From assembly GCA_963921795.1 (NCBI GenBank), contig OY997657.1, positions 24,968,157 to 25,032,156 of the forward strand: 64,000 nucleotides of DNA, given 5' to 3'. Below are positions 4,529-63,383 of the stretch, piece after piece; the first letter of the stretch is position 1, and the number at the start of each line of letters is the position of its first letter. Both the position numbers and the translations under genes were made by a program. Under the pieces are notes generated by a model that was not told the origin of the DNA, made no database searches, and was given only the letters and a program-made list of their open reading frames with translations. This DNA is from Nannobrachium achirus. Lineage: Eukaryota > Chordata > Actinopteri > Myctophiformes > Myctophidae.

Positions 4529-4769
4529 ATATCGTCACTGTCGGGCAGAAACCTCGTATCTCCAAGTTTCAAATTTGTATTATTTTTTTTCGCCAAGTAA
4601 AGCCCTGCTTCGTCACACAAGGCCGGCGCACAAAAGTAGTGAAAACAGACGATCTACAAGCACATGCTTGTAAATCTGCTGTTTTCACTAGTTAAGTTAA
4701 TTTTTTAAATGATAAATACAAAACAAACTGTTTTGGACGTACAAAGTTTCCACCCGACAACGACGATAT
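4529..4769. mobile_element. TCGTC-family MITE, copy 1
   Basis: Ends ATATCGTC and GACGATAT form the terminal inverted repeat. Flanking TA fits a TA-duplicating (Tc1/mariner-like) element. The shared palindrome (about 4636-4691) is strongly shortened: the arms GATCTACAAGCAC and TGCTTGTAAATC almost touch. Confidence 0.85.
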
Positions 4770-4784
4770 ATTATATACAGTAGA

Positions 4785-4960
4785 GAGAGAGCGAGATAGA
4801 TGGATGGATAGATAGATCGTTATTGATCCCTGTGGGGAAATTCAGGTGTCGTAGCAGAACCGCAGTGAGCATGAAACACGCGGCAGGGTAGGAGTAGAGA
4901 GATACTGAGATAAAATGTAAGATAGAAAGTAGACTTAATGTCTGAGATATAGCCATCTGA
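4785..4960 (-). mobile_element. Retroelement 3' tail-like fragment (reverse)
   Basis: Read on the minus strand, the sequence ends in a GAATTTCCCC/GGGATCAATAA motif followed by ATCTATC-type tetranucleotides, the tail seen on many fish LINE/SINE copies. No coding part is left and the family is not identified. Confidence 0.5.
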
Positions 4961-5271
4961 ACTTAGACTGAGCATAATGCTTATGTTCAGAACAAATAAT
5001 AAATATAAGCACCCATTAATTATATAGGTACTGACTATATTGACACCGGTTATGAGGCTTATTCTATTGACATTGGAACATGTAAAGCAGTTAACCTACA
5101 GTAATGTTATGTTACTTTAATGGACATCCCAGTGGTCCGTGTTCAAAAGGGCCAGAGGAAAGCAGGAGTCGTTAATCCAAGAACCTGTAGCTTGATGGCT
5201 ACCATACCAAGTGACTCTGTCTTGTACAGTACAGGAACTGTGGCTGAAAGTGCTCCTCAACCCCTCTAGCT

Positions 5272-5621
5272 CAGTGGTTCTCAACCTTTTCAGGCTGCGA
5301 CCCCCAAAATAATAATGTTTGAACTGGGGACCCCCCCCCATCTTGACGAGCACTAAGAGTTGAGGAATTACAATTTTGTATACGGTTCTATTGTAAAAAT
5401 AGCCGATCTACATGCTCACAAAACCTCGCGTTGCGAGGCGTTGTGACGTTAAATTGTCACTTTAGAAATGTGCAGATACCCTCTATACACTTAAACCTTA
5501 TGTTGGTTTGTTTACTGTTGATTGGGAAAACAATATTGCACATCAAGTTAATCTGAGGGACCCCTCAAAATAATTTGGGGACCCCTCTGGGGGTCCCGAC
5601 CCACAGGTTTGAGAACCACTG
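5272..5621. mobile_element. hAT-type MITE with CAGTGGTTCTC ends
   Basis: Ends CAGTGGTTCTCAACC and GAGAACCACTG with a perfect 8-bp duplication CTCTAGCT (5264-5271, 5622-5629). It carries a palindromic module (about 5395-5460) whose left flank matches the flank used in the CAGTGGCGTCAG family. Confidence 0.9.
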
Positions 5622-5705
5622 CTCTAGCTCATCGTAGACGGGACGGGACGGGAGAGGATCATCAGGATGGCTGCCAGCCTCCACCTCATCCTCCTCCTCC
5701 TCCAG

Positions 5706-5850
5706 GTTTTCCTTCCTTCCTTCCTTCTTCCCTTCCTTCTTCCCTTCCTTCCTTCCTTCCTTCCTTCCTTCCTTCCTTCCTTACATCCTTCCTTCCTCCT
5801 TCCTTCCTTCCTTCCTTCCTTCCTTCCTTCCTCCCTTCCTCCCTTATTTA
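5706..5850. repeat. (TTCC)n microsatellite
   Basis: TTCC tetranucleotide array with interruptions. The Pro-Ser-Leu/Phe and Lys-Glu-Gly frames over it are artefacts. Confidence 0.95.
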
Positions 5851-5899
5851 CTTCCTTTCCTCCCACTTCCCTTTTTCCTTCCATATCTGCATCTCAGCC

Positions 5900-6697
5900 T
5901 TTTTTACTGGAACTATAGCACTGACTCTGACCTTTAAGGACCTTCCAGGGAGGGTGCTCTTGTGCGTCTTGCTGTGTCACCCTTTCTTCTTTTTTTCTTT
6001 TTCTAGTTGTTTTTATCGCACTGACCTTTGGACGCTCTGCACTATTAGGTTGTGTTAGTAGTTTTTGAGTATTTTCGCTTGTGTTTGACATGACGGTGAG
6101 ATACTTGTTGCACTAACAAGCCTTATTCACGGCCCGCCCACTCAGCAAATTTCTCAGCATCCCCTGGGTGCTGACATCAATTTAGAAGGGGAAACTATAA
6201 CAGAAATAGCTGGACTTAAAGCCAACAAATCATTATTTCGAACGGTAAAGTAAATTATAATGCTTTGTGCCTTTTACTATCTTGTGTTCTTGATCATGCT
6301 AGCCGTATTTTATACTTTACTATTCGGAAATTGCATTACATTTGCGATTTCTGTGTTAACTCTATAGGCTATAGTAGGATTTTCCCCTTCAAAATGTGAC
6401 TTCAGCACCCGGGGGATGCTGAGTGGGCGGGCCGTGAATAAGGCTAACTAGCATTGACTGTTGGTCACTTTGATTTGGGCACTATATAGATAGTTGTGCT
6501 TAAGGACACTTTATGTACTGTATATATATATTTTATTCGTTCCCTTTCTTGATGTACCTTGCTCTTTACTGTACTCTGTTCTTGTTTTTCTTTTATCTTT
6601 TTCATACTTCTCTGTAACTTTGTAAATAACCTTATACTGCTGTGCTGCCTCTGGGCAACGGATTTCCCCGCTTGGGATAATAAAGGTATCTATCTAT
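5900..6697 (+). mobile_element. LINE 3'-end-like sequence interrupted by a MITE
   Basis: A noncoding region rich in TGCACT and TTTTT motifs ends in GATTTCCCCGC, AATAAAGG and ATCTATCTATC, like the 3' end of fish LINEs. It is split by the element at 6119-6445. The family is not identified and no reverse transcriptase sequence is present. Confidence 0.45.
6119..6445. mobile_element. MITE with AGCCTTATTCACGG ends
   Basis: Terminal inverted repeats of about 29 bp (AGCCTTATTCACGGCCCGCC and its complement). Flanks CACTAACA and AACTAGCA agree at 6 of 8 positions, which suggests an old 8-bp hAT-type duplication. No palindromic module is present. Confidence 0.8.
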
Positions 6698-7038: not shown

Positions 7039-7046
7039 GTAGGAAT

Positions 7047-7474
7047 TAGGGATGGGACGATAAGCGATATTATCATTTATCGTGATGAAAAAACACTCAC
7101 GATAATCGTATCGTGGAGATTTAATTTATCGTGATATCGTCCTCTGTCATGCACTGGGATCAATTCACCTTTTATTGGCCGAACTGCATATCCGGTACCA
7201 CTTAAACCCTCTATAATTGGTAAAAGGTACTTATAATATACGTACTTGACGTCTTTTTTTCCACTCTTTATCAAATGTCTTTGCCAAAAAATAGCCGATC
7301 TAAAAGCTCACAACGCGTCGCGCTGCGACGCGTTGTGAGCTTGTAGATCTGCTATTTTTTGGCAAATGTTCCGCCCCAGGATAATGGATTTCGATTATCG
7401 CGACAATATCGTAGATCGCGATTTCTTGTCTCGCAATAATCGTGATATGACATTTTCATATCGTCCCATCCCTA
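7047..7474. mobile_element. TAGGGATGGGACGATA hAT-type MITE, copy 1
   Basis: 428 bp with TIR TAGGGATGGGACGATA and a perfect 8-bp duplication GTAGGAAT (7039-7046, 7475-7482). A complete palindromic module lies at about 7281-7366, with outer stem TTTGCCAAAAAATAG and its complement, and apex CAACGCGTCGC / GCGACGCGTTG. Confidence 0.95.
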
Positions 7475-7707: not shown

Positions 7708-7972
7708 ATATCGTCGGTGTCGGGTGGAAACCTCGTATCTCCAAGTTTCAAATTTGTCCGTTCTTTCGCAAAGTAAAGCCCTGCTTCATCATACAAGGCC
7801 GTCGCACAAAAGTAGTGAAAACAGCAGATCTACAAGCACACAACGCCTCGTGGTGCGAGGCGTTGTTTGCTTGTAGATCGGCTGTTTTCACTAGTTTAAA
7901 TCATTTCTAAACTGATAAATGCAAAACGAACGGTTTTGGACATACAAGGTTTTCACCCGACAGTGACGATAT
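7708..7972. mobile_element. TCGTC-family MITE, copy 2
   Basis: Full-length copy (about 265 bp), in the orientation with the AAGCCCTGCTTCATC half first. Module at 7813-7893 with outer stem AGTGAAAACAG / CTGTTTTCACT. Flanked by TA on both sides. The open frames running through it are non-functional. Confidence 0.92.
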
Positions 7973-8436: not shown

Positions 8437-8444
8437 GTTCTGTG

Positions 8445-9195
8445 CAGTGGTGGAAGAAGTACTCAAATGTTCTACTTGAGTAAATGTATCAATACCACAC
8501 ACCCTACTGTTAGGGTGCACACACACCAAAATATGGTCGCCAGCGGATAAACTCTTTTGGTGCGCGGCTGACTAAAAACGCAGAGAGCGCTGTCCCAAAG
8601 ACAGCGAAGCGCCTGTCAGTCACTTCCAGAACGCCTTCGACTCACCCGATTGGACAGAGGGGAAAACCGGAGCTCCAGCATAAACGCAAGGTCTGTGCGG
8701 TGCGTAGATAGCCTCCACTGACATGAAAACGCCCCCTTCCTATTGAAATGCATTGGCGGAAGAAGGATTCCACTCTCATAGGTACTTTGGTGTGTGTGCA
8801 CCCTTACAATTAAAAGTGTGGCATTCAGAATTTACTTAAGTAAAAAGTACAAAAGTATTGGCATCGAGATGTACTTGAAGTACCAAAAGTAAAGTACTCA
8901 TTATTCAGAATGTCCCATTTCAAGTTTTCAAAATGTATAAAAATCTTGTGGCTGTTTTCAAATAGCCAAAACCGAAATATATGTAGAGCTTAAGTGGTTA
9001 ATGTATCTTTTGTAATGCAAATCTAAAGAAAAGTAAAATCTCCAGAAAGTAACTAAAGTTTTCATATAATCGCAGTGGAGTAAAAGTGCAATATTTACCC
9101 TCAGAGATAGTGGAGTGGATATACTAAACTAATGTAAAAAATTACCTCAAAATTGTACTTACGTAAGTACAGTACTTAGTTACTTTACACCACTG
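8445..9195. mobile_element. CAGTGGTGGAAG-family element, copy 1 (interrupted)
   Basis: Ends CAGTGGTGGAAGAAGTACTC and AGTTACTTTACACCACTG with a perfect 8-bp duplication GTTCTGTG (8437-8444, 9196-9203). It is rich in AAGTAC/GTACTT motifs and holds a nested Harbinger-like insertion. At 8950-8967 a short inverted motif (GGCTGTTTTC / AAATAGCC) resembles a module reduced to its outer stem. Confidence 0.9.
8513..8803. mobile_element. PIF/Harbinger-like MITE nested in the preceding element
   Basis: TIR GGGTGCACACACACCAAA at both ends, flanked by TTA on each side (8510-8512, 8804-8806), the three-base duplication typical of PIF/Harbinger. No transposase sequence. Confidence 0.85.
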
Positions 9196-12438: not shown

Positions 12439-12642
12439 ATATCGTCACTGTCGGGCAGAAACCTCGTATCTCCAAGTTTCAAATGTGTACGTCTTTTGCC
12501 CTGCTTCATCATACAAGACCCAAAAACACACAACACACTGCTGTTTTCACTAGTTTAGTACATTTTATAGATGATAAATACAAAACGAACGGTTTTGGAC
12601 ATACTGTAGGCCTACAAGGTTTCCACACAACAACGACGATAT
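12439..12642. mobile_element. TCGTC-family MITE, copy 3, module mostly deleted
   Basis: Both ends are present (ATATCGTC, GACGATAT). The palindrome is reduced to a right-hand ACTGCTGTTTTCACTAG remnant, and the adjacent CAAGGCCGTCG part is shortened too. Confidence 0.82.
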
Positions 12643-12756: not shown

Positions 12757-13325
<569 letters not shown>

Positions 13326-13333: not shown

Positions 13334-13899
13334 CAGGGGCGACACAAGGGGTAGGAAAGTGGGACTGAGTTACCAGGGCCCAAGGTGTTGGAGGGGCCTT
13401 AATTATTTTATACTTTAGCTATTGAAAAACAGCAGATATACAAGCTCACAGCGCGGCACCGAGTGCCGCGCTGCAAGCTTGTAGATCTGCTATTTTTGAA
13501 AAGTCGTGAAAATGTGTGCAAATCTTTGAATATATGCATTTTTTTAAGCGAACATTTGTAACTCAAATTTTGCTTCTGGGGGGTCCCTGGAACTAAATAT
13601 TTTGAGATGGGGGTCCGTGGCCGAATACATATCATTTTGGGGGTCCTGCACATGAAAAGGTTTGAGCTCCACTGGCATCAAAACATATTTAAAAAAAAAA
13701 CAAAAAAAAAACCTTAGAAGGATTTGAAATATTCAAAGATTGTCATGATTTTTCAAAAATAGCAGATCTACAAGCTCGCAGCGCGGCACTCGGTGCCGCG
13801 CTGTGAGCTTGTATATCTGCTATTTTTCAATAGTTAAAGCACAGGGGCCCCACAGTGAATCCTCGTACCCGGGGCCCAGAATTTGGTGCGACACCCCTG
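13334..13899. mobile_element. DH-hAT element, copy 2 (complete)
   Basis: 566 bp, perfect 8-bp duplication AGTGGAGA (13326-13333, 13900-13907). Left palindrome about 13420-13500, right palindrome about 13752-13832. The two are reverse complements of each other, including the mismatched positions, so each end of the cassette carries its own hairpin. Confidence 0.93.
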
Positions 13900-14515: not shown

Positions 14516-14774
14516 ATATCGTCATTGTCGGGTGAAAACCTTGTATGTCCAAAACCGTTCGTTTTGCATTTATCATTTTAAAAATGATTTAAACTAGTGA
14601 AAACAGCCGATCTACAAGCACACAACGCCTCGCAGTGGGAGGCGTTGTGTGCTCGTAGATCTGCTGTTTTCACTACTATTGTGCGATGGCCTTGTATGAT
14701 GAAGCAGGGCTTTACTTTGCGTAAGAACGTACACATTTGAAACTTGGAGATACGAGGTTTCCACCCGACGATAT
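14516..14774. mobile_element. TCGTC-family MITE, copy 4
   Basis: Near full length, with the TTTTGCATTTATC half first. Module at 14595-14675, apex CAACGCCTCGC / GGAGGCGTTG with one apex mismatch (GTGGGAGG). Confidence 0.92.
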
Positions 14775-15173: not shown

Positions 15174-15210
15174 CACACACACGCGCACACACACACACGC
15201 ACACACGCAC

Positions 15211-15288
<78 letters not shown>
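15174..15288. repeat. (CA)n microsatellite
   Basis: CA tract with scattered CG interruptions in the first third. Confidence 0.96.
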
Positions 15289-15444: not shown

Positions 15445-15476
<32 letters not shown>

Positions 15477-15508
15477 AAGGACACACACACACACACACGC
15501 ACACACAC

Positions 15509-15572
<64 letters not shown>

Positions 15573-15579
15573 ACACACA
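15445..15579. repeat. (CA)n microsatellite, interrupted
   Basis: Two CA blocks separated by GGAAGGA. Confidence 0.96.
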
Positions 15580-15713: not shown

Positions 15714-16439
15714 CAGCGGTGGACTGTACATTTACTAGAGTACTTTAACTTTAGAACGGGTACACATTATTGTGTATCATTATTTAATGCTTTAACTATT
15801 GAAAAATAGCAGATATACAAGCTCACACACTGCGAGATTGTAGATCTGCTATTTGAAAATCCGATTCTATAAGAGTGTCTTTTGAATCCTTCTAAGACTT
15901 TTTGAAAAACCTATGTTTCTATGTCAGCAATCTGGCTAGCCATCGTATTTGACTTGATTTGTATTTTGCGGTACTTTCACTCCACTACATTTAAAAGACA
16001 AAATGTCGTACTTTTGACTTGTTTCTGTACGTTTCTAAACCACTTCAGGCTTAGAAAACAGAAGATCTACAAGCTCACAATGTGTCACAATGTGTTGTTC
16101 TGAGCTTGTAGATCTGCTAGATTGATTATTATTATGTTTTGAAAACTCCTGGGAAATCTTACATTTTGCGGGAAAATGTCTACAGTTTCAATGTGTTGAA
16201 AATAAATGCCAATTGTAATTGTACTTATTTGGCTGCGTAATTATTCCTTTAAAAGCATGCACTTTTGAATTATTTTTAAAAGCAAACTACTCTGTACGCA
16301 GTACTTGACTCAAGTACATATTTGACAGAGCAACATTCGCTTGTGTCGAGTAATATTTGACCAGGAGTATCTACTGTATACTTCAAGACTTCTATACTTA
16401 GACTTCAAGTACTGTCTGGGGTTGTTGAGTACACCGCTG
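15714..16439. mobile_element. CAGTGGTGGAAG-family element, copy 2 (CAGCGGTGGA end)
   Basis: Ends CAGCGGTGGA and CACCGCTG. Flanks GATACCAC / AATACAAC match at 6 of 8. It is interrupted by a DH fragment and carries a palindromic module at 16054-16121 (arms GATCTACAAGCTCAC / TGAGCTTGTAGATCTGC). Confidence 0.78.
15753..15945. mobile_element. DH element fragment nested in the preceding element
   Basis: Only the left end (AACGGGTACACATTATTGTG) and a shortened left palindrome with its inner flank remain. It breaks off after the CAATCTGG/CCATCGT segment also found at 1500 and 50465. Confidence 0.7.
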
Positions 16440-17776: not shown

Positions 17777-19496
<1,720 letters not shown>

Positions 19497-19504: not shown

Positions 19505-20035
19505 CAGTGGCGTCAGTTCAGCAAAAGCTAGGGTATGGCAAAGAATAGGCATTACATTTTGGATAACACGGTTCTATTGTGAAAATGGCTGATCTACATG
19601 CTCACAAGCATATAGATCGGCTATATAAAGAAGAAAGAAGAACGACTTTTGTCAGTTTTTTACACAGTTTCTTGGGCTGGATATGGCAGCCCGGAACGGT
19701 TGTTCAAGTGCAGCTAAACTTAGCATGTTAGTAAACGTGCCACAATTAACAATAATGCATTGCACCTGTGCAGCTGACCTGCGGAACCTGGGAATATACC
19801 ATTTTGTCAAGCCGGGGAGAATACAAGTGTGGAGAATATAATTATAATACCTTGTTAAAGTGACCATTTTGTTAAATTTGCATTTGTAGTTATTTTACTG
19901 TAATTTAACAACAAGCACAGATAGACAAAGAGACATTCGTGGATTTATATTTAAAAGTAACTTTTATTCTCCCCCCTGGACCCAGGGTATGGCAGCTGCA
20001 GTGCATACCCCTGCCATACCCAATTGACGCCCCTG
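19505..20035. mobile_element. CAGTGGCGTCAG hAT-type MITE, copy 1
   Basis: 531 bp, perfect 8-bp duplication GTGGGAAG (19497-19504, 20036-20043). The module at about 19572-19626 is short (GATCTACATGCTCAC / AAGCATATAGATCGGC). The element contains GGGTATGGCA at one end and TGCCATACCC at the other. Confidence 0.93.
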
Positions 20036-20265: not shown

Positions 20266-20528
20266 ATATTGTCGTTGTCGGGTGGAAACCTCGTATCTCC
20301 ATGGCCAAGTTTCAGATTTGTACGTTCTTTCACAAAGCAAAGCCCTGCTTCATCATACAAGGCCGTCGCACAAAAGTAGTGAAAACAGCCGATCTACGCC
20401 GATCAACGCCTCGAGGCGTTGTGTGCTTGTAGATCGGCTGTTTTCACTAGTTTGAATCATTTTTAAAATGATAAATGCAAAACGAACGGTTTTGGACATA
20501 CAAGGTTTTCACCCGACAGCGACGATAT
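20266..20528. mobile_element. TCGTC-family MITE, copy 5
   Basis: Near full length. Module at 20376-20452 with a rearranged left arm (GATCTACGCCGATCAACGCC) against a normal right arm. Confidence 0.9.
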
Positions 20529-21075: not shown

Positions 21076-21268
21076 TCCACAAGTTCCCAAAGTCCCATCG
21101 TGCATTGCGTAGAAGGTGCACTGTGCGGCAGTTTCCCGCGTCGCAGCCGAGGGTGATCTACAAGCTCACAACCGTTGCATTTGTGACGCGACGTGAGCTT
21201 GTATGTCTGCTGTTCTCCGGAAGTGTCCCACAGATAATTCTACAGTAAATTATCGTGGAAACAGGTGT
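21076..21268. mobile_element. TCCACAAGTT-family MITE, copy 1
   Basis: Shares CCCATCGTGCATTGCG, CGCAGCCGAG and CCGGAAGTGT with the copy at 34685. It carries a palindromic module (about 21155-21217: GATCTACAAGCTCACAAC / GTGAGCTTGTATGTCTGC). The right end is decayed. Confidence 0.65.
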
Positions 21269-21384: not shown

Positions 21385-21735
21385 TAACAGAATGGGTTTG
21401 CGCTCTGGCATCACGCTCTGGCTTGATGTCCCTTTTATGCCCATATTTGGAGATCGCTGATGTCTTCACGAGTCACACTTGCAAATGAATTATGTCCTTA
21501 TCTGTTTTATGCCCATATATGGAGATTCCTGTCTCGATCATCAATATTAAGCACATATCTGGGAATGCCCATATTTGGTAATGCTCATATATGGGCATGT
21601 TCTGACATCACATTGTTGACTACAGTATCATGCCAGGGGTCTGGTGCAACTGGTCCGATATACATCACTGGCCAGATGGCCAGCCCTTTAGGGCGAGGTC
21701 GCATGTCGCCCTGAGGCGTCTTACTAGTAATGACG
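21385..21735. repeat. ATATGGGCAT-family element, copy 2 (reverse)
   Basis: Repeated TATGCCCATATATGGAG units and a terminal block GGGCGAGGTCGCATGTCGCC followed by CTTACTAGTAA, the mirror of the start of the copy at 40961. Confidence 0.65.
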
Positions 21736-22557: not shown

Positions 22558-22819
22558 ATATCGTTGTTGTCGGTGGAAACCTTGTATCTCCAAGTTTCAA
22601 ATTTCTACGTTCTTTTGCAAAGTAAAGCCCTGATTTATCATACAAGGCCGTTGCACAAAAGTAGTGAAAACAGCAGATTTACAAGCACACAACGCCTCGC
22701 CGCGAGGCGTTGTGTGCTTGTAGATCGTCTGTTTTCACTAGTTTGAATCATTTTTAAATGATAAAATGCTAAACGAACGGTTTTGGATATACAAGGTTTT
22801 CACCCGACAACGGCGATAT
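22558..22819. mobile_element. TCGTC-family MITE, copy 6
   Basis: Full length with a clean module at 22660-22740. The apex has lost a few bases symmetrically (CCTCGC / CGCGAGG). Confidence 0.92.
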
Positions 22820-23404: not shown

Positions 23405-23994
23405 CAGGGGTGTCACAATGGGGGGGGGGGGGGGGAAAGTGGGACTGAGTTACTATAGGGCCCAAGGTGGAGGGGCCTGGAATTATTTGATACTTTAGCT
23501 ATTTTTCGTCGTGAAAACGTGTGCAAATCTTTGAATACATGTATTTTTTTAAGCGAACATTTGTGACTCAGATTTAGCTTCTGGGGGGGTCCCTGGAACT
23601 AAATATTTTGAGATGGGGGTCCGTGGCCAAATACATATAATTTTGGGGGTCCTTCACATGGAAAAGTTTGAGCACCACTGACATAGAAACATAGGGTTTT
23701 CAAAAAAAGGGGACTGCCCATAAGTCCGAAGGTTCATTAGTCCGAATTTAGTTAGGGTTACTGAGGTTAGGGTTAGGGTTAGAGTTAGGCATAGTATTTT
23801 TAAGAAATTAGGACTAATGAACCTTCGGACCAATGCCGAAGACTTGCACATTTAATGTTCACGATTTTTCAAAAATAGTAGATCTACAAGCTCGCAGCGC
23901 GGCACTCGGTGCCGCGCTGTGAGCTTGTATATCTGCTATTTTTCAACAGTTAAAGCACCCAGGCCAGGGCCCAGAGTTTGGTGGGACACCCCTG
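23405..23994. mobile_element. DH-hAT element, copy 3 (nested insertion)
   Basis: Ends CAGGGGTGTCAC / GGGACACCCCTG. Flanks GAGGAGAG / GAGAAGAG agree at 7 of 8. The left palindrome is deleted to GCTATTTTT. The right palindrome is complete (about 23870-23945). A small foldback is inserted at about 23705-23845. Confidence 0.87.
23705..23845. mobile_element. Small inverted-repeat element nested in DH-hAT copy 3
   Basis: Inverted ends GTCCGAAGGTTCATTAGTCC and GGACTAATGAACCTTCGGAC enclose a GTTAGGG-rich centre. It interrupts the DH cassette between its AAACATAGG part and the AAGACTTGCAC part. Confidence 0.7.
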
Positions 23995-24797
<803 letters not shown>

Positions 24798-24995: not shown

Positions 24996-25255
24996 ATATC
25001 GTCGTGGTCGGGTGAAAACCTTGCATGTCCAAGTTCGTTTTGCATGTATCGTTTAAAAATGATTCAAACTAGTGAAAACAGCCGATCTACAAGCACACAA
25101 CGCCTCGCACCGCGAGGCGTTGTGTGCTTATAGATCTGCTGTTTTCACTACTTTTGTGCGACGGCCTTGTACGATGAAGCAGGGCTTTACTTTGCGAAAG
25201 AAGGTACAAATCTGAAACTTGGAGATATGAGGTTTCCACCCGACAACAACAATAT
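24996..25255. mobile_element. TCGTC-family MITE, copy 7
   Basis: Full length. Module at 25070-25149 with apex CCTCGCACCGCGAGG and arms nearly perfect. Confidence 0.92.
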
Positions 25256-33268: not shown

Positions 33269-33702
33269 CAGGGGTCTTCAACGTTTTCAGGTCAAGGACC
33301 CCTTAGTTGGGAGAGAGATGAAGCAGGGACCCCCACAACCTTTTCAGAGATTCTATATAGTTTCATTGCTTGACAGCACAATCATCAGTGTATTTTGGAT
33401 TCAGGTCAATTTGTGTTTTCAAATATTTAACCACTTGGGCCGTCATTACCTAATAAACTTGACCTTTCACTCTGTACTTAGTCTGCTCTTTTCCCCCTCT
33501 ACACCAAACCGAAAATAGACGATCTACATGCTCTGCGAGGCGTTGTGAGCTTGTAGATCTGTCTATTTTTGGCTACAGTTCTCAGAATATGTACACTAGG
33601 GTTCAAGTTGTTAATATAAAAAGGATTGGAATATTTGGAGGACCCCCTGTAGTAACTCTGAGGACCCCCTAGGGGTCCCAGACCCCCTGTTGAAGACCAC
33701 TG
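33269..33702. mobile_element. CAGGGGTCTTC hAT-type MITE, copy 1
   Basis: Ends CAGGGGTCTTCAACG / GTTGAAGACCACTG. Flanks TCTTACTG / ACTTACTG match at 7 of 8. The module (about 33510-33570) lacks part of its left apex, so the right arm is longer than the left. Confidence 0.9.
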
Positions 33703-34513: not shown

Positions 34514-35232
34514 TTAAGCAGCTTAGACCGGGTGTACGCATTATTATTGCGTGTTGTTATTTCATGCTTTAGCTATTACAAAAATAGCAGATTTGCCGCG
34601 TGCCGCGCTGCGAGCTTGCAGATCTGCTATTTTAGAAAAAAATCGTGAACGTTTGAATTTTGACCCGATTTTGACCCGATTCTATCCACAAGTTTCCAAC
34701 ATCCCATCGTGCATTGCGCAGAAATTGTATGGAGCTTCCGGCGCCGCAGCCGAGTGTGATCTACAAGCTCACAACGGCTGCATCTGCGACGCGATGTGAG
34801 CTTGTATGTCTGCTGTTAACCGGAAGTGTGGTGCAGTGTGGTGCAAAACATTCTCCAGTAAATTCCCGCGGAAAGAGGTGGATAAGACAGTCTTCTAAAT
34901 CCTTCTAAGGTTTTTTTGAAAAACACACGTTTCTATGTCAGTGGTTCTCGAACTCTTTCATGTCAAGGACCCCTAGAATTATATGTATTTGGCTGCCGAC
35001 CCCCCCGTCTCAAAATATTTTGCATCAGGGACCCCCCCCCCCCCAGAAGCAAATATTTGAGTTACAAATGTTCACTTTAAAAATGAGATGTTCAACGATT
35101 TACACGCATTTTCACGATTTTTCAAAAATAGCAGATCTACAAGCTCGCAGCGCGGCACTCGGTGCCGTGCTGCGAGCTTGTATATCTGCTATTTTTCAAT
35201 AGTCAAAATAATTCTGGGCCTAAACGGATTAA
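34514..35232. mobile_element. DH-TTAA element, copy 4, with a nested MITE
   Basis: TTAA at both ends (34514-34517, 35229-35232). Left palindrome shortened on its left arm; right palindrome complete (about 35124-35199). A TCCACAAGTT-family MITE sits inside at 34685-34882. Confidence 0.85.
34685..34882. mobile_element. TCCACAAGTT-family MITE, copy 2 (nested)
   Basis: Ends TCCACAAGTTTCC / GGAAAGAGGTGGA flanked by TA on each side (34683-34684, 34883-34884). It carries its own palindromic module (34757-34815), so three copies of the module lie within 720 bp. Confidence 0.75.
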
Positions 35233-36505: not shown

Positions 36506-37080
36506 CAGTGGCGTCAGTTCAGCAAAAGCTAGGGTATGGCAAAGATGAGTCCTCATGGAAAAGAGGACTCTTACATTTTGTATAACACGGTTCTATTGTG
36601 AAAATAGCAGATCTACATGCTCACAACGCCTCGCGCTGCGAGGCGTTGCGGCTATTTTCACAATATCTTAAAAAAAACGAGTTTTGTCCGTTTTTTTTAC
36701 ACAGGTTTCTACGGTTTCTAGGGCTGGATATGGCAGCCTGGAATGGTTGTTCAAGAGCAGCTAAACTTGGCATGTTAGTAAACGTGCCACAATTAACAAT
36801 AATGAATTGCACCTGTGCAGCTGACCTGCGGAACCTGGGAATATACCATTTTGTCAAGATGGGGAGAATATAATTATAATACCTTGTTAAATAAAGTGAC
36901 CATTTTGTAAAATTTAGCATTTGTAGTTATTTTACTGTAAATTCAACAACATAATAACCAGCACAGATAGACAAAGAGACATATTCATGGATTTATATTT
37001 AAAAGTAACTTTTATTTTCGCCCCCCTGGACCCAGGGTATGGCAGCTGCGTACCCCTGCCATACCCAATTGACGCCCCTG
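36506..37080. mobile_element. CAGTGGCGTCAG hAT-type MITE, copy 2
   Basis: Flanks GGAGAAAT / GGAGAAAC agree at 7 of 8. Module at 36594-36666: a complete left arm and apex, but the right arm jumps from GCGTTG straight to CGGCTATTTTCACAAT, missing TGAGCTTGTAGAT. A 91-codon frame inside is not supported as a gene: the copy at 19505 breaks it. Confidence 0.9.
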
Positions 37081-37587: not shown

Positions 37588-37803
37588 AATCGTCGTTGTC
37601 GGGTGGAAACCTTGTATGTCCAAAACCGTTAGTTTCGCATTTTATCATTTTAAAAATGATTCAAACTAGTTGTGTGCTTGTAGATCTGCTGTTTTCACTG
37701 CTTTTGTGCGACGGCCTTGTATGATGAAGCAGGGCTTTACTTTGCGAAAAAACGTACAGACCTGAAACTTGGAGATACGAGGTTTCCACCCGACAACGAC
37801 GAA
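37588..37803. mobile_element. TCGTC-family MITE, copy 10 (left half of module lost)
   Basis: Flanked by AA rather than TA. The sequence passes from CAAACTAGT directly to the right arm TGTGCTTGTAGATCTGCTG (about 37667-37700). Confidence 0.88.
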
Positions 37804-38813: not shown

Positions 38814-39203
38814 TAGGGCTGTCACAATTATTTCATAATTGTCTAATCGCGATTATTTGACATAATCGCGATTATTTGACATAATCGTCATAATCGTTTC
38901 CATGTTGAAAAATGTTAGTATATTTCTTTTGAAGTAAAAAATAGTGGAAATAGCCGACGCGTTGTGAGCTTGTAGATCGGCTATTTCCACTATCAATGTT
39001 TTTTTAAGTATAAAGTCGTCAAATATGCCTGTCTTTGTATATTTAGGTTATGAGTCATAATTACCATGTGCGACTTCAAAGCCTACAGTACAAGCCAAAC
39101 AGAAATGCAATTGTCAACGACAAAAACACAATTAAATCTTGAATCGCAATTATTTGAGCGACTATTAATCGTCATGTAAAATGTCATAATCGTGACAGCC
39201 CTA
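38814..39203. mobile_element. TAGGGCTGTCAC hAT-type MITE
   Basis: 390 bp, TIR TAGGGCTGTCACAATTAT-type with a perfect 8-bp duplication GACAGAAC (38806-38813, 39204-39211). Its module (38943-38993) has outer stem TAGTGGAAATAGCC / GGCTATTTCCACTA and lacks the left GATCTACAAGCTC part. Confidence 0.94.
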
Positions 39204-39471: not shown

Positions 39472-39979
39472 TTATACCATTAAGACCGGGGTACGCATTA
39501 TTACGCAATATTTTATGCTTTAACTATTGAAAAATAGCAGATATACAAGCTCACGGCGCGGCACCAAGTGCCGCGCCGCGAGCTTGTAGATCTGCTATTT
39601 TTTGAAAAATCATGAACATTAATTTTGTGCAAGTCTTCGAATATTTTTGACCCGATTCTATAAGTGTCTTCTAAATCCATGTTTCTATGTCAGTGGTGCT
39701 CAAAATCTTTCATGTGAAGGACGCCCAAAATTACACGTATTTGGCCGTGGACCCCCATCTCGAAACGTGTTGTTCCAGGGACCCCGCAGAAGCAAATATA
39801 TGAGTTACAAATGTTCGCTTTTAGAAAGATATATTCAAAGATTTGCAAAAAAAAAAAGATTTTTCAAAAATAGCAGATCTACGAGCTCGCAGCGCGCCAC
39901 TCGGTGCTGCGCTGTGAGCTCGTATATCTGCTATTTTTCAATAGCTTGTATAAAATAATTGTAGGCCTTAAATGGTTAA
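39472..39979. mobile_element. DH-TTAA element, copy 6
   Basis: TTAT at the left and TTAA at the right. Both palindromes are nearly complete (about 39526-39604 and 39858-39945). The right arms carry paired CGAGCTC / GAGCTCG changes. Confidence 0.85.
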
Positions 39980-40384
39980 ACCTAGTCAAAATGTCAGTGG
40001 GGCGCGGGGCGGAGCGGTGGCGCTCTCTCTGCAATGCACTCAGCAAATGGGGAATCTGCTAATAGAATCTGGGATATAAATTTTCCTGTCACCTCCTCTA
40101 TCTCTGAGGAGCCATTCGGTCGATAAGAGAGAAAGATTGGGTTGAAAATTGATTTTTGCAGAATAATTGCCATTCTCTATCTGGGGAACTTGAGTGTCTC
40201 TGAGGCCTTTTTTCCTATTACAGTTGCTGACTCTCCAATTTACTTGCACCAGAGAAAATACACGAAGGAGGCGCAGCCTTTGCCCTTCTTTTGCAATGAA
40301 CAAGGCTGCAAAGACTCCTGAATGAGAATTAAGGTGAACTCGGCTGTTCTTTAGCTTGATAAGATGTGACCTTTTATCACAGAA
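39980..40384. other. Unique spacer, CNE-like
   Basis: No repeat recognised. Evenly mixed composition (40025-40380) with no coding domain. Confidence 0.4.
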
Positions 40385-40960: not shown

Positions 40961-41340
40961 ATACTAGTAAGACGTAAAGGGCGAGGTTGCGCCACAGTGA
41001 TGTGGACATCAGGGATCTCCATATATGGGCATAAAAGGGATTTGTTCCCCAGGCATCACAGGGATCTCCATATCTCCATATATGGGCATGAAAGGGATTT
41101 GTTCCCCCTGGCATCACAGGGATCTCTCTAACAGGGCATCATTAATGATGACATCAGGGAACTCCATATATTTGGGCATAAAAGGGATTCCGTTAGTGTG
41201 ACATCACAGTGAAGCCAGAGCGTGATGTCAGAGCGGCAAAACCCATTCTGGTAGATTGGTTCCCCTGACATCACAGTGACATCAGAGCATGATGACATCA
41301 TGATGACACATTAAAATATGTAACTGCGACCTTTGGTCGC
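40961..41340. repeat. ATATGGGCAT-family element, copy 3 (most complete)
   Basis: Opens ATACTAGTAAGACG, GGGCGAGGTTGC, then has three imperfect CTCCATATATGGGCAT units with GACATCA spacers, and closes with the small palindrome GCGACCTTTGGTCGC. Confidence 0.7.
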
Positions 41341-41679: not shown

Positions 41680-42227
41680 CAGGGGCGTCACAAGGGGGGG
41701 GAAAGTGGGACTGAGTTACTAGGGCCCAAGGTGGAGGGGCCTGGAATTATTTTATACTTTAGCTATTGAAAAATAGCAGATCTACAAGCTCACAGCGCGG
41801 CACAAGTGCCACGCTGCGAGCTTGTAGATCTGCTATTTTTGAAAAGTCGTGAAAATGTGTGCAAATCTTTGAATATATGTATTATTTTAAGCGAACGTTT
41901 GTAACTCAAATTTTGCTTCTGGGGGGTCCCTGGAACTAAATATTTTGAGATGGGGGGGGGGGGGGGGGTCCGTGGCCAAATACATATCATTTTGGGGGTC
42001 CTTCACATGAAAAGGTTTGTGCACCACTGACATGGAAACGTAGGTTTTTCCAAAAACCTTAGAAGGATTTGAAATATTCAAAGACTTGCACAAATGTTAA
42101 AAATGTCAAAAATAGCAGATCTACAAGCTCGCAGCGCGGCACTCGGTGCCGCGCTGTGAGCTTGTATATCTGCTATTTTTCAATAGTTAAAGTACCCAGG
42201 GCCCAGGAATTTGGTGCGGCACCCCTG
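41680..42227. mobile_element. DH-hAT element, copy 5 (complete)
   Basis: 548 bp, perfect 8-bp duplication ATTAGAGG (41672-41679, 42228-42235). Left palindrome about 41766-41845, right about 42105-42185. A 20-base G-run lies at about 41952-41970. Confidence 0.94.
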
Positions 42228-42571: not shown

Positions 42572-43010
42572 CAGGTACGTGCAGAGAGAATGTTAGAGAG
42601 GCAGGGGCTGAGATTTCCAAAAGGGCCTTTTGGTGAAAATATTGAAAATGGCAGACCTGCTAGCTCACAACGCGTCGCGCTGCGACGCGTTGTGAGCTTG
42701 GAGGTCGGCTATTTTCAGTACTTGATACCACACAAAACAGCATAAAGAATTAAGGCAATACTGGAGATGTGGCGTAACGGCACGGATATGGCAATTCTTT
42801 CAACATAAGATGATGCATTCAGGTTCAGGAGAGTTTGAACAAGGCAATTCTCTTGAATGCTGCCTTCATGTATGGCATGAAAAGAGGGCATTTGCATTTC
42901 TTTCACCATAGTAAAAACTGCATTCATGGTCTGGAGAGGGCACTTTTTACAGACGGATAAAAGGGCAGGGGCTCAAGCCCCCTTTCATGTCTTATGCGTG
43001 CACGTGCCTG
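42572..43010. mobile_element. CAGGNACGTGCAGAG hAT-type MITE, copy 3 (complete)
   Basis: 439 bp, perfect 8-bp duplication CGGGAGAG (42564-42571, 43011-43018). TIR CAGGTACGTGCA / TGCACGTGCCTG. Complete module at 42641-42722 with apex CAACGCGTCGC / GCGACGCGTTG, the same apex as in the TAGGGATGGG family, and arms GACCTGCTAGCTC / GAGCTTGGAGGTC. Confidence 0.95.
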
Positions 43011-45797: not shown

Positions 45798-45894
<97 letters not shown>

Positions 45895-47915: not shown

Positions 47916-48854
47916 CAGTTGTGGAAGAAGATCATTTACTCAAGTACGGATGTCCTTACAGTATGTTACATTTTGAGGTACTGTTATTTTATTTTTTGAT
48001 ACTTTAATCAAATTCGAATCCACTACATCTGGGGTCTTCAATGTTTTCAGGCCAAGGACCACTTAGTTGAGAGAGAGATGAAGCAGGGACCCCCTCTACC
48101 TCTTCATAGATTCCATATAGTTTCATTATTTGACAGCACAATCATCAGTGTATTTTGGATTCATGTCCATGATGTATTTTTCAGATATTTAACTATGAAC
48201 CATCCATACTTGATAAACTTGACCTTTCACTCAGCACTCTTTTTCCCCTCTACACCAAACCTCTTTGCCGAAAATAGACGATCTTTGTGAGCTTGTGATC
48301 TGCTATTTTTGGCTAAAGTTTATGGACGCTAGGGTTCTAGTGGTTAATATAACAAAGGAGAAAAAGGTTTCTATCACTCAAAGATTTGGAGGACCCCCTG
48401 TAGTAACTCTGAGGACCCCCGATGGGGTCCCGGACCCCCTTGCCTTACAGTATGTTACATTTTGAGGTACTTTTGAGGTATTTTACTTTAGTTTTTTTTT
48501 TAATATATTTTAATAAAATTTGAATCCACTACATTACATTAATTGAAAGCTTTAGTCACTATAGTTAATTTTCTGATTTAGGTTATTAATAAAGATATCA
48601 GAAATGTTCTAAATCTTTTGAAAATAGCAAATCTACATGCATTATAGGGTCCCCATCCGGAAGGTCAAAGGGGGTACATTTATTGCAATCATTTTTTGTC
48701 TTAGGAAGTTAGGAATGCAACAAAAAACTAAAAATTATTATTGAACTCAAGTCTCCATGGCGTGAGTAATAAATAGAAAAAAGGCATTTTGGGATATAAG
48801 TAAGATTTTGAATACAGTCCAAAGTAAATAATCAGAGTACTTCTTCCACCGCTG
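47916..48854. mobile_element. CAGTGGTGGAAG-family element, copy 4, with nested insertions
   Basis: Ends CAGTTGTGGAAGAAG / CTTCTTCCACCGCTG. Flanks GTTATAGA / GTTATAAA match at 7 of 8. It holds a CAGGGGTCTTC MITE between two partial copies of the same body segment, and a half foldback (about 48640-48800). Confidence 0.82.
48029..48440. mobile_element. CAGGGGTCTTC hAT-type MITE, copy 2 (right end lost)
   Basis: Starts CTGGGGTCTTCAATG and stops at GGACCCCC without the GTTGAAGACCCCTG end. Module strongly shortened (48273-48311: GATCTTTGTGAGCTTGTGATC). Confidence 0.8.
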
Positions 48855-49287: not shown

Positions 49288-50009
49288 CAGTGGTTTTCAA
49301 ATATTTTCATGTCAAGGACCCCCAAATGTATTTGGCCCCGGACCCCCTATCTGAAAAAAAAAAACTGTTTCAGGACATTAGGGAACATTTCTCAAGATTT
49401 TTCTAAAATAGCTGGTCCACAAAGAGTAGCCAAAGAGTGAATCAGGCTTAAATGTTTAAAACAGGGATCTTCAATGTTTTCAGGCCAAGGACCCCTTAGT
49501 TGAGAGAGAGATGAAGCAGGGACCCCTTAGTTGAGAGAGAGATGAAGCAGGGACTCCCACAACCTTTTCATATATTCCATATAGTTTCATTGTTTGACAG
49601 CACAATCGTCAGTGTATTTTGGATTCACGTCAGTGTGTGTTTTCAGATATTTAACCACTCGAGCCTCATTAAGAAACTTGACCTTTCACTATGTACTTAG
49701 TCTGCTCTTTTCCCCCTCTACACCAAACCTCTTTGCCAAAAATAGCCGATCTACAAGCTCACAACGCCTCGCAGTGCGAGGCGTTGTGAGCTTGTAGATC
49801 TGCTATTTTTGGCTACAGTTCTCAGAATATTGACACTAATGTTCAAGTTGTTAATATAAAAAGGATAGGAAGAATTGGAGGACCCCCTGTAGTAACTCTG
49901 AGGACCCCCTAGGGATCCCGGACCCCCTGTTGAAGACCCTTGGTTTAAAACGTTCCTAATTTTAGCTGGGGACCCCCTGGAACCACCCCAAGGACACCTC
50001 AAACCACAG
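49288..50009. mobile_element. hAT-type element (CAGTGGTTTTCAAA) split by another MITE
   Basis: Left end CAGTGGTTTTCAAATATTTTC, right end CTCAAACCACAG. The interior resembles the centre of DH cassettes (GTCAAGGACCCCCAAATG). No clear duplication. Interrupted at 49462-49942. Confidence 0.6.
49462..49942. mobile_element. CAGGGGTCTTC hAT-type MITE, copy 3 (complete, nested)
   Basis: Perfect 8-bp duplication GTTTAAAA (49454-49461, 49943-49950). Complete module at 49735-49813 with outer stem TTGCCAAAAATAGCC / CTGCTATTTTTGGC. A tandem duplication of the TTAGTTGAGAGAGAGATGAA block lies near 49496-49555. Confidence 0.95.
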
Positions 50010-54029: not shown

Positions 54030-54196
54030 GGCCTCTCACAGCATACCTCCATACACAGTACATGGATCTCTATATATGGGTACCAGGGGTCTCCATATAT
54101 GGGTAACTGGTCTGATATACATCACGGCAGATGGCCAAGACATGGCATGACCTCGCCCTTTAGGGTGAGGTCGCTTGTCGTTCGTCGCTCGTCTTA
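54030..54196. repeat. ATATGGGCAT-family element, copy 5
   Basis: CTCCATATATGGGTAACTGG, then CTCGCCCTTTAGGGTGAGG and CGTCTTACTA at its right end. Confidence 0.65.
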
Positions 54197-56279: not shown

Positions 56280-56689
<410 letters not shown>

Positions 56690-56949
56690 GGTCGTTGTCG
56701 GGTGGAAACCTTGTATGTCCAAAACCGTTTGTTTTGTATTTATCATTTTTAAAATGATTTAAACTAGTGAAAACTGCCGATCTACAAGCACACAACGCCT
56801 CGCACCACAAGGCGTTGTGTGCTTGTAGATCGGCTGTATTCACTACTTTTGTGCAACGGCCTTGTATGATGAAGCAGGGCTTCATCATACAAAGAACGTA
56901 CATATTTGAAACTTGGAGATACAAGGTTTCCACTCGACAACGACGATAT
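56690..56949. mobile_element. TCGTC-family MITE, copy 13
   Basis: Left TIR slightly truncated, right end intact. Module 56765-56845. Both apex strands vary (CCTCGCACCACAAGG). Confidence 0.9.
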
Positions 56950-58052: not shown

Positions 58053-58546
<494 letters not shown>

Positions 58547-60434: not shown

Positions 60435-61864
60435 ATGTACTGTATGAGGTTCATCTCCTTTAGCTCTGCTATCACAGTTCGTCACCAGGTTGTTTGGGGC
60501 CAACCTGTCCATCCTAAAGCGACCTTTGCGAAGTTAACGAAGTATGGACTAAGTATATTGGCTTGTAGTGGTTAATACAATATTACCGGTACATCTGCAG
60601 TGGTTGCATGTGGTCTGAACTCTGAATCCACTCTTCCATTGAGAAATGTAGACCCTGGTGTCAGGTAGGACACCTACAGTACTGGTTGATGGGTAGCACT
60701 GCCTGAAGTTCATTACAACAATATCTCCCCTGACAAAGCGACATGTGGAGCTATATTTTCGTCTATGCCTCACCCCTTATTAAAACAGGTAAAGAGGTTT
60801 AGGAATAAGGGGTAAGGCATGGACGAAACTAGGGCCCGTGGTCTCATATGGGAGATGCGAGTAGGACAGCTTTAATTCTAAGAGTCTCCAAAATTGAATA
60901 TAAACAATTGGACCCATAAGTGGGTGCATTTTGGCTACATTTAAGCACACACTCTGAGATACAAATTAACACTGATGCTTTTACAGTGGGCCCCTCAGTG
61001 ATGTGTGAGAGATGCACCTGTTTGATTCCCCCCCCCCCCCCCCCCCCATCCCCGCCTTCTTTTTTTAAGGGAAACCCAAAGACACCGGGTTCTGTCCTTA
61101 TAGTGTCTCAGTGTTGCATTTTGACAGCAAATTTTGATTTCGTTTTAGTCATAGTCTTTTGAATAAAACGTTGTTTAGTTTTAGTCAGATTTGAGTCGTC
61201 CGAAATGTTGTACTTTTAATCTAGTTTACAAGCTGTTTCTGACACCCAAGCGCAACCAAACATAAAATGACTTGTCTTTTGCCTTTTAGTTCTGTTGGAT
61301 GTCTTCTCCACTATAGTCCACCCCTAACATCTAGTTTTTTATTTGTTGACCAAATTGTCACTGTATTTACTCTTAGTTTCAGACTTTCAGCCATCATACC
61401 TCAGTTTCTATTTCATTTTTATCAGTGAACATTTCCCGCCATAGTTTTAGTCGACAGAATGAACAGGGCCAGGTCTTCTGTGTGGTTGTCTTCTACAGTG
61501 CTGGGAGCAGCCCATTAGTCATAATAGAGAGACTAGGCAGCAGGCTCATCTCTCCTGTGCTATCTATCTGTGAGCAGATAAAAGAGGCAGGTGTGAGGCG
61601 GAAATTAATGTAAATCCATCAGCCTTCAATTAGAAACCCAACTCACACCCCAAAATAAAGACTCTGCCGCAAAACCAATAGGAATCCAGCTTTATTCACA
61701 TCCAACCCCCCTCATACCCCACCACCACCCACCCCAAGCTCTTCACTCCCAGTACAACAGAAGACCTAACAGTATAGTGTCTGAGCACTCTTTGCGCATG
61801 CAGGAGCTGTGGTATAATGTGAAGTTTAATGACGGGAGAGCGCGGGCCGCGCGTGTGCGTTATG
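60435..61864. other. Unique block with C-run at 61028-61047
   Basis: The largest repeat-poor stretch in the right part. No coding domain recognised. Confidence 0.45.
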
Positions 61865-62516
61865 CAGGGGCGTCACAAGGGGGGGGAAAGGGGGACTGAG
61901 TTACTAGGGCCCAAGGTGGAGGGACTTCAATTATTTTATACTTTAGCTATTGAGAAATAGCAGATATACAAGCTCACTGTGTGGCACCGAGTGCCGGGCT
62001 GCGAGCTTGTAGATTTGTAGAAGTCGTGAAAATATGTGTAAATCTTTGAATATATGTATTTTTTTAGCAAACATTTGTGACTCAAATTCTGCTTCTGGGA
62101 GGTCCCTGGAACTAAATATTTTGAGATCGGGGTCCGTTGCCAAATACATATCATTTTGGGTGTCCTTCACATGAAAAGGTTTGAGCACTATAGGTTTTTC
62201 AAAAAAACCTTAGAAGGTATTTGAAATATTCAAAGACTTGCACAGATTTTCACGTTTTTTCAAAAATAGCAGATCTACAAGCTCGGATATACAATCTTAG
62301 ATATACAAGCGTGGCACTCGGTGCCGCACTGTGAGCTTGTATATCTGCTATTTTTCAATAGTTGAAGCACAACATAATGCGTTCCTAGTATAAATGAGTT
62401 AAACCCCCTCCCCCTATGAAGATGAAGAATATTCAGTCTTCACCAAGTGAAGAACAATCAGCCTTCACCAAGTGAATCCTTGTACCCAGGACCCGGAATT
62501 TGGTGCGACACCCCTG
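61865..62516. mobile_element. DH-hAT element, copy 6
   Basis: Ends CAGGGGCGTCAC / GCGACACCCCTG, flanked by CGTGTGCGTTATG / CGTGTGCGTTACTG, a 13-base near repeat rather than 8. The right palindrome contains an extra ATATACAATCTTAGATATAC piece. The tail holds a duplicated TTCACCAAGTGAA block. Confidence 0.88.
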
Positions 62517-62762
62517 CGTGTGCGTTACTGTATGTGCAGGTGCAGGGTGTTAGCTCGCCCGCGAGCAGCCAGCCACCGCGGCGTACTGTACTGTATATGC
62601 GCGGTCGTCCATTAGGCTCCCAGTGTGTGGCCAGGCTAATTCTGTGTGCCTGGGGGTGCAGGGAGCAGCGTCTCTCTGCGGACCGTGGGCTGGGGGAGAA
62701 AGAACGGCGCTTTAACCTAATTTGGTTCTAATTACAAAGACAGGAAGTCCACCTGCCACACA
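62517..62762. other. Unique spacer
   Basis: No recognised feature. Possibly noncoding conserved DNA at 62600-62755. Confidence 0.4.
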
Positions 62763-62770
62763 TACGGCTG

Positions 62771-62972
62771 CAGGGACGTGCAGAGAATGTTAGAGAGACA
62801 GGGGCTGACATTTCAAAAAGGGCCTTTTGGTGCTTGAACACTGAACTAGGCATAATCAATTTCTTTCACCATTGTAAAAACTGCATTCATGGTCTGGAGA
62901 AGGCACTTTTTACATACGGATAAAAGGGCAGGGGCTCAAGCCCCCTTTGATGTCTATGTGTGCACGTGTCTG
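62771..62972. mobile_element. CAGGNACGTGCAGAG hAT-type MITE, copy 4 (internally deleted)
   Basis: 202 bp, perfect 8-bp duplication TACGGCTG (62763-62770, 62973-62980). The central part including the module is deleted. Confidence 0.93.
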
Positions 62973-62980
62973 TACGGCTG

Positions 62981-63123
62981 TGCTGCTTCTCCCTCTGAAG
63001 GCTTGGAGAGAGAGGGTCTGGAGGAAGGGATGGAGAGAGAGAGAGGGTGAAGGACAGAGAGAGAGAAGGAACAAGAGGGAGAGAGAGAGAGAGGCAGACA
63101 GACAGACATATACTGTTGTAGAG
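62981..63123. repeat. GA-rich low-complexity stretch
   Basis: Interrupted GA units and a CAGA patch. Confidence 0.8.
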
Positions 63124-63383
63124 CACTGTTTCCCAAACAGTGGATCAGGAGGACCCATTTGTTGGTCAGGGACCCATTCTTATGGGAGTCGGGTAAAAAT
63201 ACCATTTTCTTTTCCTACATTTAAAAATATACAGACAAAATGTAAGAAATTCCATAAATAAAAAATACAACAATTAAGAAGTTAGCAGATCTACAAGCTC
63301 ACAGCTTGTAGATCTGCTATTTTCCCTAATTTGAAACGTCTAATTTCTCTTGGGTCTTGAGCTAAAAGGTGTGGGAACCACTG
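63124..63383. mobile_element. hAT-like MITE (CACTGTTTCCCA / GTGGGAACCACTG)
   Basis: Flanks TTGTAGAG / CTGCAGAG agree at 6 of 8. It carries a minimal module (63281-63333), AGCAGATCTACAAGCTC directly joined to ACAGCTTGTAGATCTGC, the shortest clean form in the window. Confidence 0.75.

Follow-up and report, generated by a model that had tools for sequence, protein, structure and literature searches.

A stretch of 64,000 nucleotides from the myctophid fish Nannobrachium achirus (assembly GCA_963921795.1, contig OY997657.1, forward-strand positions 24,968,157 to 25,032,156; hereafter the window) is crowded with miniature inverted-repeat transposable elements (MITEs) that differ in their ends and in their target site duplications (TSDs) and that carry the same hairpin module in their interiors. 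The initial annotation had drawn attention to about 60 copies of this hairpin between 4636 and 63333. A search of both strands for the arm GATCTACAAGC, allowing at most one mismatch, gave 106 matches, whereas 100 dinucleotide shuffles gave a mean of 1.08 and a maximum of 5. The matches group into 64 clusters, 41 with at least two arms and 23 with a single arm, so that the count of about 60 is borne out at a density of roughly one cluster per kb; most clusters lie within the range just mentioned, but those at 1775, 2952 and 3240 fall outside it.

Outward and inward extension of the arm gives a hairpin of about 80 nt. Five intact copies were folded as RNA, giving stems of 34-39 bp, a loop of 3 nt and energies of -59 to -69 kcal/mol, with folding z values of -12 to -17. 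Twenty-four window copies were used to build a covariance model of the hairpin (85 nt); it returned 119 strand matches in the window at E up to 1, including copies missed by the arm search, such as the more mismatched one at 42638-42722. By a table compiled by hand, 64 of 68 window modules lie within recognised carriers, and two of the four outside are single arms with one mismatch. Rfam gave 14 matches in the window (E no higher than 0.1), none of which reached the gathering (curated) threshold; the families concerned were rejected on that score, several of the matches sitting on these MITE hairpins.

The carriers are short, have terminal inverted repeats (TIRs) and are flanked by TSDs, as expected of MITEs, and a glance at the list of open reading frames suggested that they are noncoding. 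When families were told apart by clustering of flanks, eight in the window were firm (F3 among them on a TSD matching at 7 of 8 bp) and three were weaker. A search for TIRs with 8-bp TSDs gave 21 rows, of which 5 were dropped as hairpin arms pairing with one another and 16 were kept; a control with shifted TSDs gave 3 chance matches. The module is present in 12 of the 16 elements (11 by the arm search, and 42572-43010 by the covariance model only), or in 13 if one counts 47916-48854, which holds half a module and a nested F3 element. Exact 8-bp TSDs bound DH elements with CAGGGG ends and members of the CAGTGGTTCTC, TAGGGATGGG, CAGTGGCGTCAG, TAGGGCTGTCAC and CAGGTACGTGCAG families, and TSDs matching at 7 of 8 bp were found at 23405-23994, 33269-33702 (the CAGGGGTCTTC family) and 36506-37080. 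Exact 8-bp duplications together with TAG/CAG...CTG-type ends are those of hAT-type MITEs, and the 8-bp carriers are called hAT-type in this sense. The F1 family, with TCGTC...GACGA ends, was aligned over 12 copies and has equal 2-bp flanks in 10 of the 12 window rows (8 TA and 2 AA) and in 16 of 20 loci from the window and elsewhere, the latter count being made after the removal of 11 loci (L146 and L184-L194) from 31. The DH element consists of two hairpins in long inverted repeats. One DH core occurs with CAGGGG ends and an exact 8-bp TSD and, as judged by eye, also with TTAA-type ends; TTAA, the duplication of piggyBac-type MITEs, was read by eye at several, not all, ends, and the automatic search gave no TTAA pair. 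The carriers therefore fall into TSD classes of 2 bp (mostly TA) and 8 bp, plus TTAA by eye, and to this extent the earlier claim that the module is common to families of different TSD classes is supported. The carriers and related elements of the window are as follows.

7711..7969, + strand, F1 MITE with TA TSD; module core 7827-7879
12442..12636, + strand, F1 MITE; no recognisable module arms
14516..14769, - strand, F1 MITE; module core 14609-14661
20269..20525, + strand, F1 MITE; left module arm damaged
22561..22816, + strand, F1 MITE; module core 22676-22726
24999..25252, - strand, F1 MITE; module core 25084-25136
37590..37802, - strand, F1 MITE; one module arm lost
56689..56946, - strand, F1 MITE; module core 56779-56831, flanking 2 bp unequal (TC / TA)
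2923..3393, - strand, DH with CAGGGG hAT-type ends; exact TSD ACTCCACT
13334..13899, + strand, DH with hAT-type ends; exact TSD AGTGGAGA, cores 13435-13487 and 13765-13817
41680..42227, + strand, DH with hAT-type ends; exact TSD ATTAGAGG, cores 41779-41830 and 42118-42170
39500..39990, + strand, DH with TTAA-type ends, boundaries approximate and by eye; cores 39540-39592 and 39876-39928
33269..33702, + strand, F3 MITE; module core 33521-33559
49470..49942, + strand, F3 MITE; intact module 49748-49800 (37-bp stem, 3-nt loop, -69 kcal/mol as RNA), TSD not found
7047..7474, + strand, F4 MITE, TAGGGATGGGACGA; exact TSD GTAGGAAT, module core 7297-7349
24373..24709, + strand, F4 MITE beside a CA repeat; exact TSD CACACACA, module part-deleted, arm 24595-24605
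19505..20035, + strand, F5 MITE (CAGTGGCGTCAG family); exact TSD GTGGGAAG, core 19591-19618 with its centre deleted
36506..37080, + strand, F5 MITE; module from 36610
38814..39203, + strand, F6 MITE (TAGGGCTGTCAC family); exact TSD GACAGAAC, partial module 38940-38994
34742..34826, + strand, module of F8, TCCACAAGTT; other copy 21139-21223
5272..5621, + strand, F9 MITE (CAGTGGTTCTC family); exact TSD CTCTAGCT, module from 5405
42572..43010, + strand, F10 MITE (CAGGTACGTGCAG family); exact TSD CGGGAGAG, module 42638-42722
62771..62972, + strand, module-less relative of F10; TSD TACGGCTG
63272..63330, + strand, shortened module of F12 (CAGTGGTTCCC-like); ends by eye
16048..16130, + strand, module in CAGTGGTGG-like sequence; assignment by eye

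F8 is known from two copies only, which have one flank in common. The CAGTGGTGG family includes a module-less copy with an exact TSD, GTTCTGTG, at 8445-9195, the half-module copy at 47916-48854 with a TSD of 7/8, and one full module at 16064. The copy at 8445-9195 has an inner palindrome, GGCTGTTTTCAAATAGCC, similar to the module's outer arm sequences with their order reversed. A 31-bp unit is repeated in tandem close to the left end of the F3 element at 49470 (49489-49554; 2.1 copies, 100% matches).

The hairpin is by no means confined to this region. The exact 20-mer GATCTACAAGCTCACAACGC occurs 54,361 times in the genome of 1,658,514,493 bases, and its reversed control 0 times. A sample of 25 stretches of 10 kb (250 kb, taken from 15 contigs at position 5 Mb or 20 Mb) gave 99 strand matches to the covariance model at E up to 0.01, which by hand count represent 51 places, or about 0.2 per kb, and extrapolation leads to roughly 3x10^5 places in the genome; by the arm search, 200 kb (the first part of the sample) yielded 63 clusters. 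Together with eight further 3-kb loci, the sample added five carrier families, CAGGGGTTTTCAAA, TAGGGCATTCAC (F16), CAGTGTTGATTTTG and the composites F19 and F20, so that the TSD-tested carrier families number 13, 8 in the window and 5 outside. About 11 other TSD-bounded elements of the sample, in a list judged by eye, are without the module. The three simple carriers among the additions (L numbers designate loci outside the window) are:

L134:1276-1703, CAGGGGTTTTCAAA carrier; exact 8-bp TSD
L150:9093-9576 and L158:5082-5289, F16 carrier; exact 8-bp TSDs GTGCATGG and CTATAGAG
L156:4030-4514, CAGTGTTGATTTTG carrier; exact 8-bp TSD

The exact 20-mer of the module was absent from viral contigs. 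A gapped pattern of the module gave 132 matches in 79 viral and 51 prokaryote stretches, which were rejected as chance because, of the 22 rows inspected among the 132 (18 chosen for the best inner pairing, plus the 4 whose arms came within 2 mismatches of AATAGC-GATCTACAAGC), none was module-like. Papers that contain the letters GATCTACAAGC do not concern repeats, judging from their titles and abstract openings.

The modules in different families share a common origin. At one fixed stem position, the first outward letter of the arms, T on one arm opposes G on the other in 16 of 23 F1 modules and, after removal of one duplicate row, in 15 of 38 modules that are neither F1 nor DH; the DH modules have T and T there, with the mismatch in 0 of 25. 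The mismatch is present in the representatives of F1, F3, F9, F10, F13, F15, F16 and F17, and the F4 representative has T and T, with G and T in the F4 copy at 7297. Because palindromes of independent origin would hardly repeat such a mismatch at the same stem position, the comparison of sequences argues that the module is homologous across carrier families. Descent of all carriers from a single ancestral element moved by a single transposase, which would have refuted the reading in the initial annotation, was not borne out. Across 231 arms (a set that includes two arms from the duplicate row), outward letters 2-9 are 72-90% conserved and position 10 is 49% conserved.

The two arms have also tended to change together. 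Both sides are altered at 16 of 34 stem pairs (58 cells, compared to 6-16 in slid controls). Beyond the shared part, each family has stem extensions of its own that match between arms: among 16 representatives, agreement is 4.88 of 8 within families versus 2.48 between them, a result reached by 0 of 20000 permutations; a one-base offset of the F5 right arm lowers the within-family figure. Private mirrored changes in DH number 3 versus 0.43 expected, a result reached by 9 of 2000 permutations. On this modest evidence, the most likely explanation is that one hairpin arm is copied onto the other at the DNA level via a hairpin or cruciform, since mirrored changes occur in single and presumably unselected copies. 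The initial annotation had proposed that the palindrome is a mobile or converting unit of its own; the coordinated arm changes hold up, and self-movement has so far gone unsupported, with nearly all window modules inside carriers. The stem is fragile: part of its centre is missing from 33 of the 86 modules with two arms, and the 33 deletions are all distinct (L136 was dropped as a duplicate of L135, and L132 and L138 were excluded as copies of L131 and L137), the figure for the window and the 250-kb sample being 31 of 81. The unshared deletions may suggest a function, but star-like bursts predict them too.

Direct evidence for transfer of the module between families came from a genome-wide search for module-less F1 copies, in which the two flanks of the module lie at most 12 nt apart. 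The search found 37 places, of which 20 were fetched. Nine of these have a common outer flank, and this flank is that of L146:3746-4315, a composite element (F19) in which a whole F1 with intact module lies within 8-bp-TSD-type ends. When longer flanks of the nine loci were retrieved, seven had perfect 8-bp TSDs, no two alike (AGAGAGAG among them, within a GA repeat), one had a TSD of 7/8 and one was without the left end. Seven different perfect duplications at seven loci argue that F19 moved as a unit by means of its outer ends. The nine loci are without the hairpin because they were chosen for its lack; L146, with its own perfect TSD, retains it and is the single module-bearing F19 copy observed. 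A sequence without F1 should exist at the same internal position if F1 was inserted. The single-TA version of this pre-insertion sequence had 0 occurrences in the genome and was set aside, the F1 duplication in F19 being AA; the version predicted from the AA duplication has one genome occurrence, L195, which has no F1 and aligns to both F19 flanks at 86-89%. A second element without F1, beginning at L143:9597 in the random sample, has CCAGAAAGTAAATACAACTC at the same place and is 90-91% identical to F19 on both sides. Module-less F19 copies at L187 and L189 have several marks in common and different perfect TSDs, which implies that elements without the module can spread. An F19-like composite without its left hAT end, L188, has a further hairpin arm in its left flank.

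The second composite, F20, consists of CAGGGTTCCCC ends with a nested F1, and both of its loci with longer flanks (2/2) have different perfect TSDs and no module. The module-bearing composites are:

L146:3746-4315, F19 composite, ends CAGGGACGTGCTGG; TSD GCTGGGAG (8/8), whole F1 with intact module inside
L150:2729-3090, F20 copy; one module arm, TSD 7/8
about L163:3690-4190, F20 copy; both ends, F1 with TA on both sides, intact module

A module-bearing F1, with its 2-bp TSD, has entered two 8-bp TSD families by nested insertion and has spread with them. The idea that the other carriers simply hold nested insertions of one hairpin family is therefore correct for the way in which F19 and F20 gained the module, but these composites went on to become families of their own. 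Among the module-less F1 loci, L165 (G000:C2:38239280-38239580) and L166 (G000:C2:38634880-38635180) are near-identical, have the same flanks and lie about 396 kb apart, a pair that looks like a segmental duplication.

Partial remains of inner elements were detected in other carriers. F16 includes the right half of F9 through the terminal base of F9 (94% and 88%), with the left end of F9 missing, and the centre of DH includes an F9-like terminus that is complete to the first base (76%, E 2e-5). F5 and F9, which have different ends, share 36 nt adjoining the module (z 8.6). Matches at 116-143 of F5, 94-124 of F10, 249-270 of F13 and 199-234 of F17 were left unused, being the incompletely masked module itself.

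The best explanation for the distribution of the hairpin, and a reasonably probable one, is engulfment, in which an old lineage of MITEs, with the hairpin as its interior, passes from one transposon family to another. A hairpin-bearing MITE would insert into a copy of another nonautonomous element, and the outer ends would then mobilise the composite, founding a new family with the TSD type of the outer element. Subsequently the inner ends and flanks would decay or be deleted, leaving recognisable only the hairpin and flanking sequence of varying extent. The insertion and the mobilisation are both seen in F19 and F20. F16 and the DH core show the decay partway, and in most other carriers it presumably ran further; the remaining carrier families would have arisen likewise, with the evidence since lost. 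By this route the hairpin has passed out of a family with 2-bp TSDs and into others with 8-bp TSDs, its presence in TTAA-type elements having been read by eye, and internal sequence can apparently outlast a change of mobilising machinery by riding in composites. Repeat libraries based on internal similarity could wrongly merge such families. The origin of unexplained MITE internal sequences, and the effect of internal structure on amplification, become testable.

Several observations weigh against engulfment as the general route. The direct cases are two composites only, with F1 as the inner element in both; the TSD-dispersed loci were chosen as module-less, and composites with an intact module were seen only at L146 and L163. 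No clear TSD was found for the F20 copy at L163 (5/8 by eye), and none for either of the F19-type elements without F1 (L195 and L143). Ends of an inner element were not found for F1 itself or for F3, F4, F6, F8, F10, F12, F13 and F17, and the likeness of the F3 and F4 flanks is weak (z 5.9, E 0.035, when unrelated pairs among 378 comparisons reach 5.0-5.6). Mirrored changes in F1 are not significant (1 versus 0.34 expected). Furthermore, conservation of the module drops abruptly from 0.86 to 0.5 or less 9 nt beyond the GATC arm, and such an edge fits a discrete unit better than a mixture of random breakpoints. As judged by eye, TA lies beyond both arms in F1, F5, F6 and F10, and the commonest junction in module-less F1 copies, identical in 15 of the 37, is the one predicted for an empty TA site. 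The last three points are what one would expect if the hairpin were a tiny self-mobile element of about 80 bp that inserts at TA and enters MITE families singly. Human MADE1, a palindromic MITE of the mariner type, offers a model for such an element. The 15 identical junctions also follow from deletion between TAGT repeats, though; the other 22 junctions are varied and deletion-like. With just four window modules outside recognised carriers, two of them the mismatched single arms, and with two carriers that demonstrably received the module inside a larger MITE, self-mobility is quite improbable.

It is also rather improbable that the hairpin core acquired new ends through template switching in the course of gap repair, or through macrotransposition, the movement of two neighbouring elements as one, rather than by nesting. 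The one-sided flank sharing of F5 and F9 fits replacement of one end, but in F19 the inner F1 is complete and still has its 2-bp duplication, and elements like F19 exist that have no F1, which is the signature of plain insertion. Both routes have been proposed for P-MITEs (PMC1562414). A different kind of alternative, and an unlikely one, is that the module is a selected signal (a cruciform, a replication or chromatin signal, or a small-RNA hairpin) that makes its carriers amplify better under any transposase. Its presence in 13 TSD-tested families, the coordinated arm changes, and the source copies, which appear intact because none of the stem deletions is shared, would all agree with selection. 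Bursts from few source copies also give unshared deletions, however, the module-less F19 copies L187 and L189 have spread, and by eye there is no excess of one-sided changes that keep G-U pairs. A stronger version, in which the hairpin is a transposase-independent amplification module and nonautonomous elements that acquire it gain copy number in two TSD classes at a minimum and probably in three, is distinctly unlikely; if true, the hairpin would be re-used as the core of successive families and would outlive each transposase system.

Engulfment has a neutral form, overlapping with the general reading, in which hairpin MITEs are so dense that composites are likely to include one and the hairpin itself adds nothing, and this has not far from an even chance of being the case. 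The 51 places in 250 kb and the roughly one cluster per kb of the window would supply the raw material, and the hairpin may have been carried merely through the great number of MITEs that bear it. The module does occur in 12 of the 16 TSD-bounded window elements, which is above the density expectation, but copies of the same family are not independent. Frequent engulfment of dense hairpin MITEs suffices to explain the spread, and the cruciform or small-RNA signal envisaged in the initial annotation is not needed.

A close precedent, by analogy and within one transposase class, is provided by the CMITEs of Acropora corals. CMITE families with different TIRs have in common a conserved internal region of 75 bases, a new element arose via CMITE insertion, and the internal region was suggested to aid transposition; the elements have TTAA duplications and piggyBac-type ends, with about 1600 copies estimated in A. 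millepora (PMC2872659). To the expectation in the initial annotation that MITE families should not share internal sequence, the corals are a printed exception. The fish carriers resemble CMITEs in having an internal region common to families with different TIRs. They differ in having 2-bp and 8-bp TSDs (with TTAA by eye), a near-perfect hairpin and an extrapolated 3x10^5 places, and they fall outside the definition of CMITEs, all of which have a TTAA TSD and a piggyBac motif, because their TSDs are 8 bp and 2 bp. A text search of the CMITE paper found no mention of hairpin, palindrome or secondary structure (PMC2872659). Passage of a domain into another kind of element is also described for the V domain, a highly conserved domain of short interspersed elements that occurs inside the MITE MER6 (PMC6887750); unlike the fish hairpin, it is a retrotransposon domain with different amplification machinery. 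The Anopheles element AgaP2-P12 is likewise a composite MITE, but its parts, from two subfamilies, both derive from P elements; ectopic repair and macrotransposition are considered there, as is the possibility that a stable structure is advantageous (PMC1562414). No report of a hairpin common to MITE families of different superfamilies was found among titles and abstract openings of the open-licence literature, where one may still exist. Bacterial repetitive extragenic palindromic (REP) and related elements are short palindromes of high copy number; those of the RAYT type have a cognate REP-associated tyrosine transposase and free-standing copies. The fish hairpin departs from these in that almost every copy in the window is carried within a TIR element.

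The window also contains repeats of other kinds. Long, near-pure dinucleotide arrays of GA, CA, CT or TG lie at 104-278, 13135-13310, 15174-15288, 15445-15579, 45800-45884 and 58056-58217, and a short TAACCC-type repeat at 18588-18630 resembles the telomere unit. At 41015-41126, a 57-bp unit that includes CCATATATGGG is present in 1.9 copies, with related words in two further tandem repeats (21554-21599 and 54058-54113).

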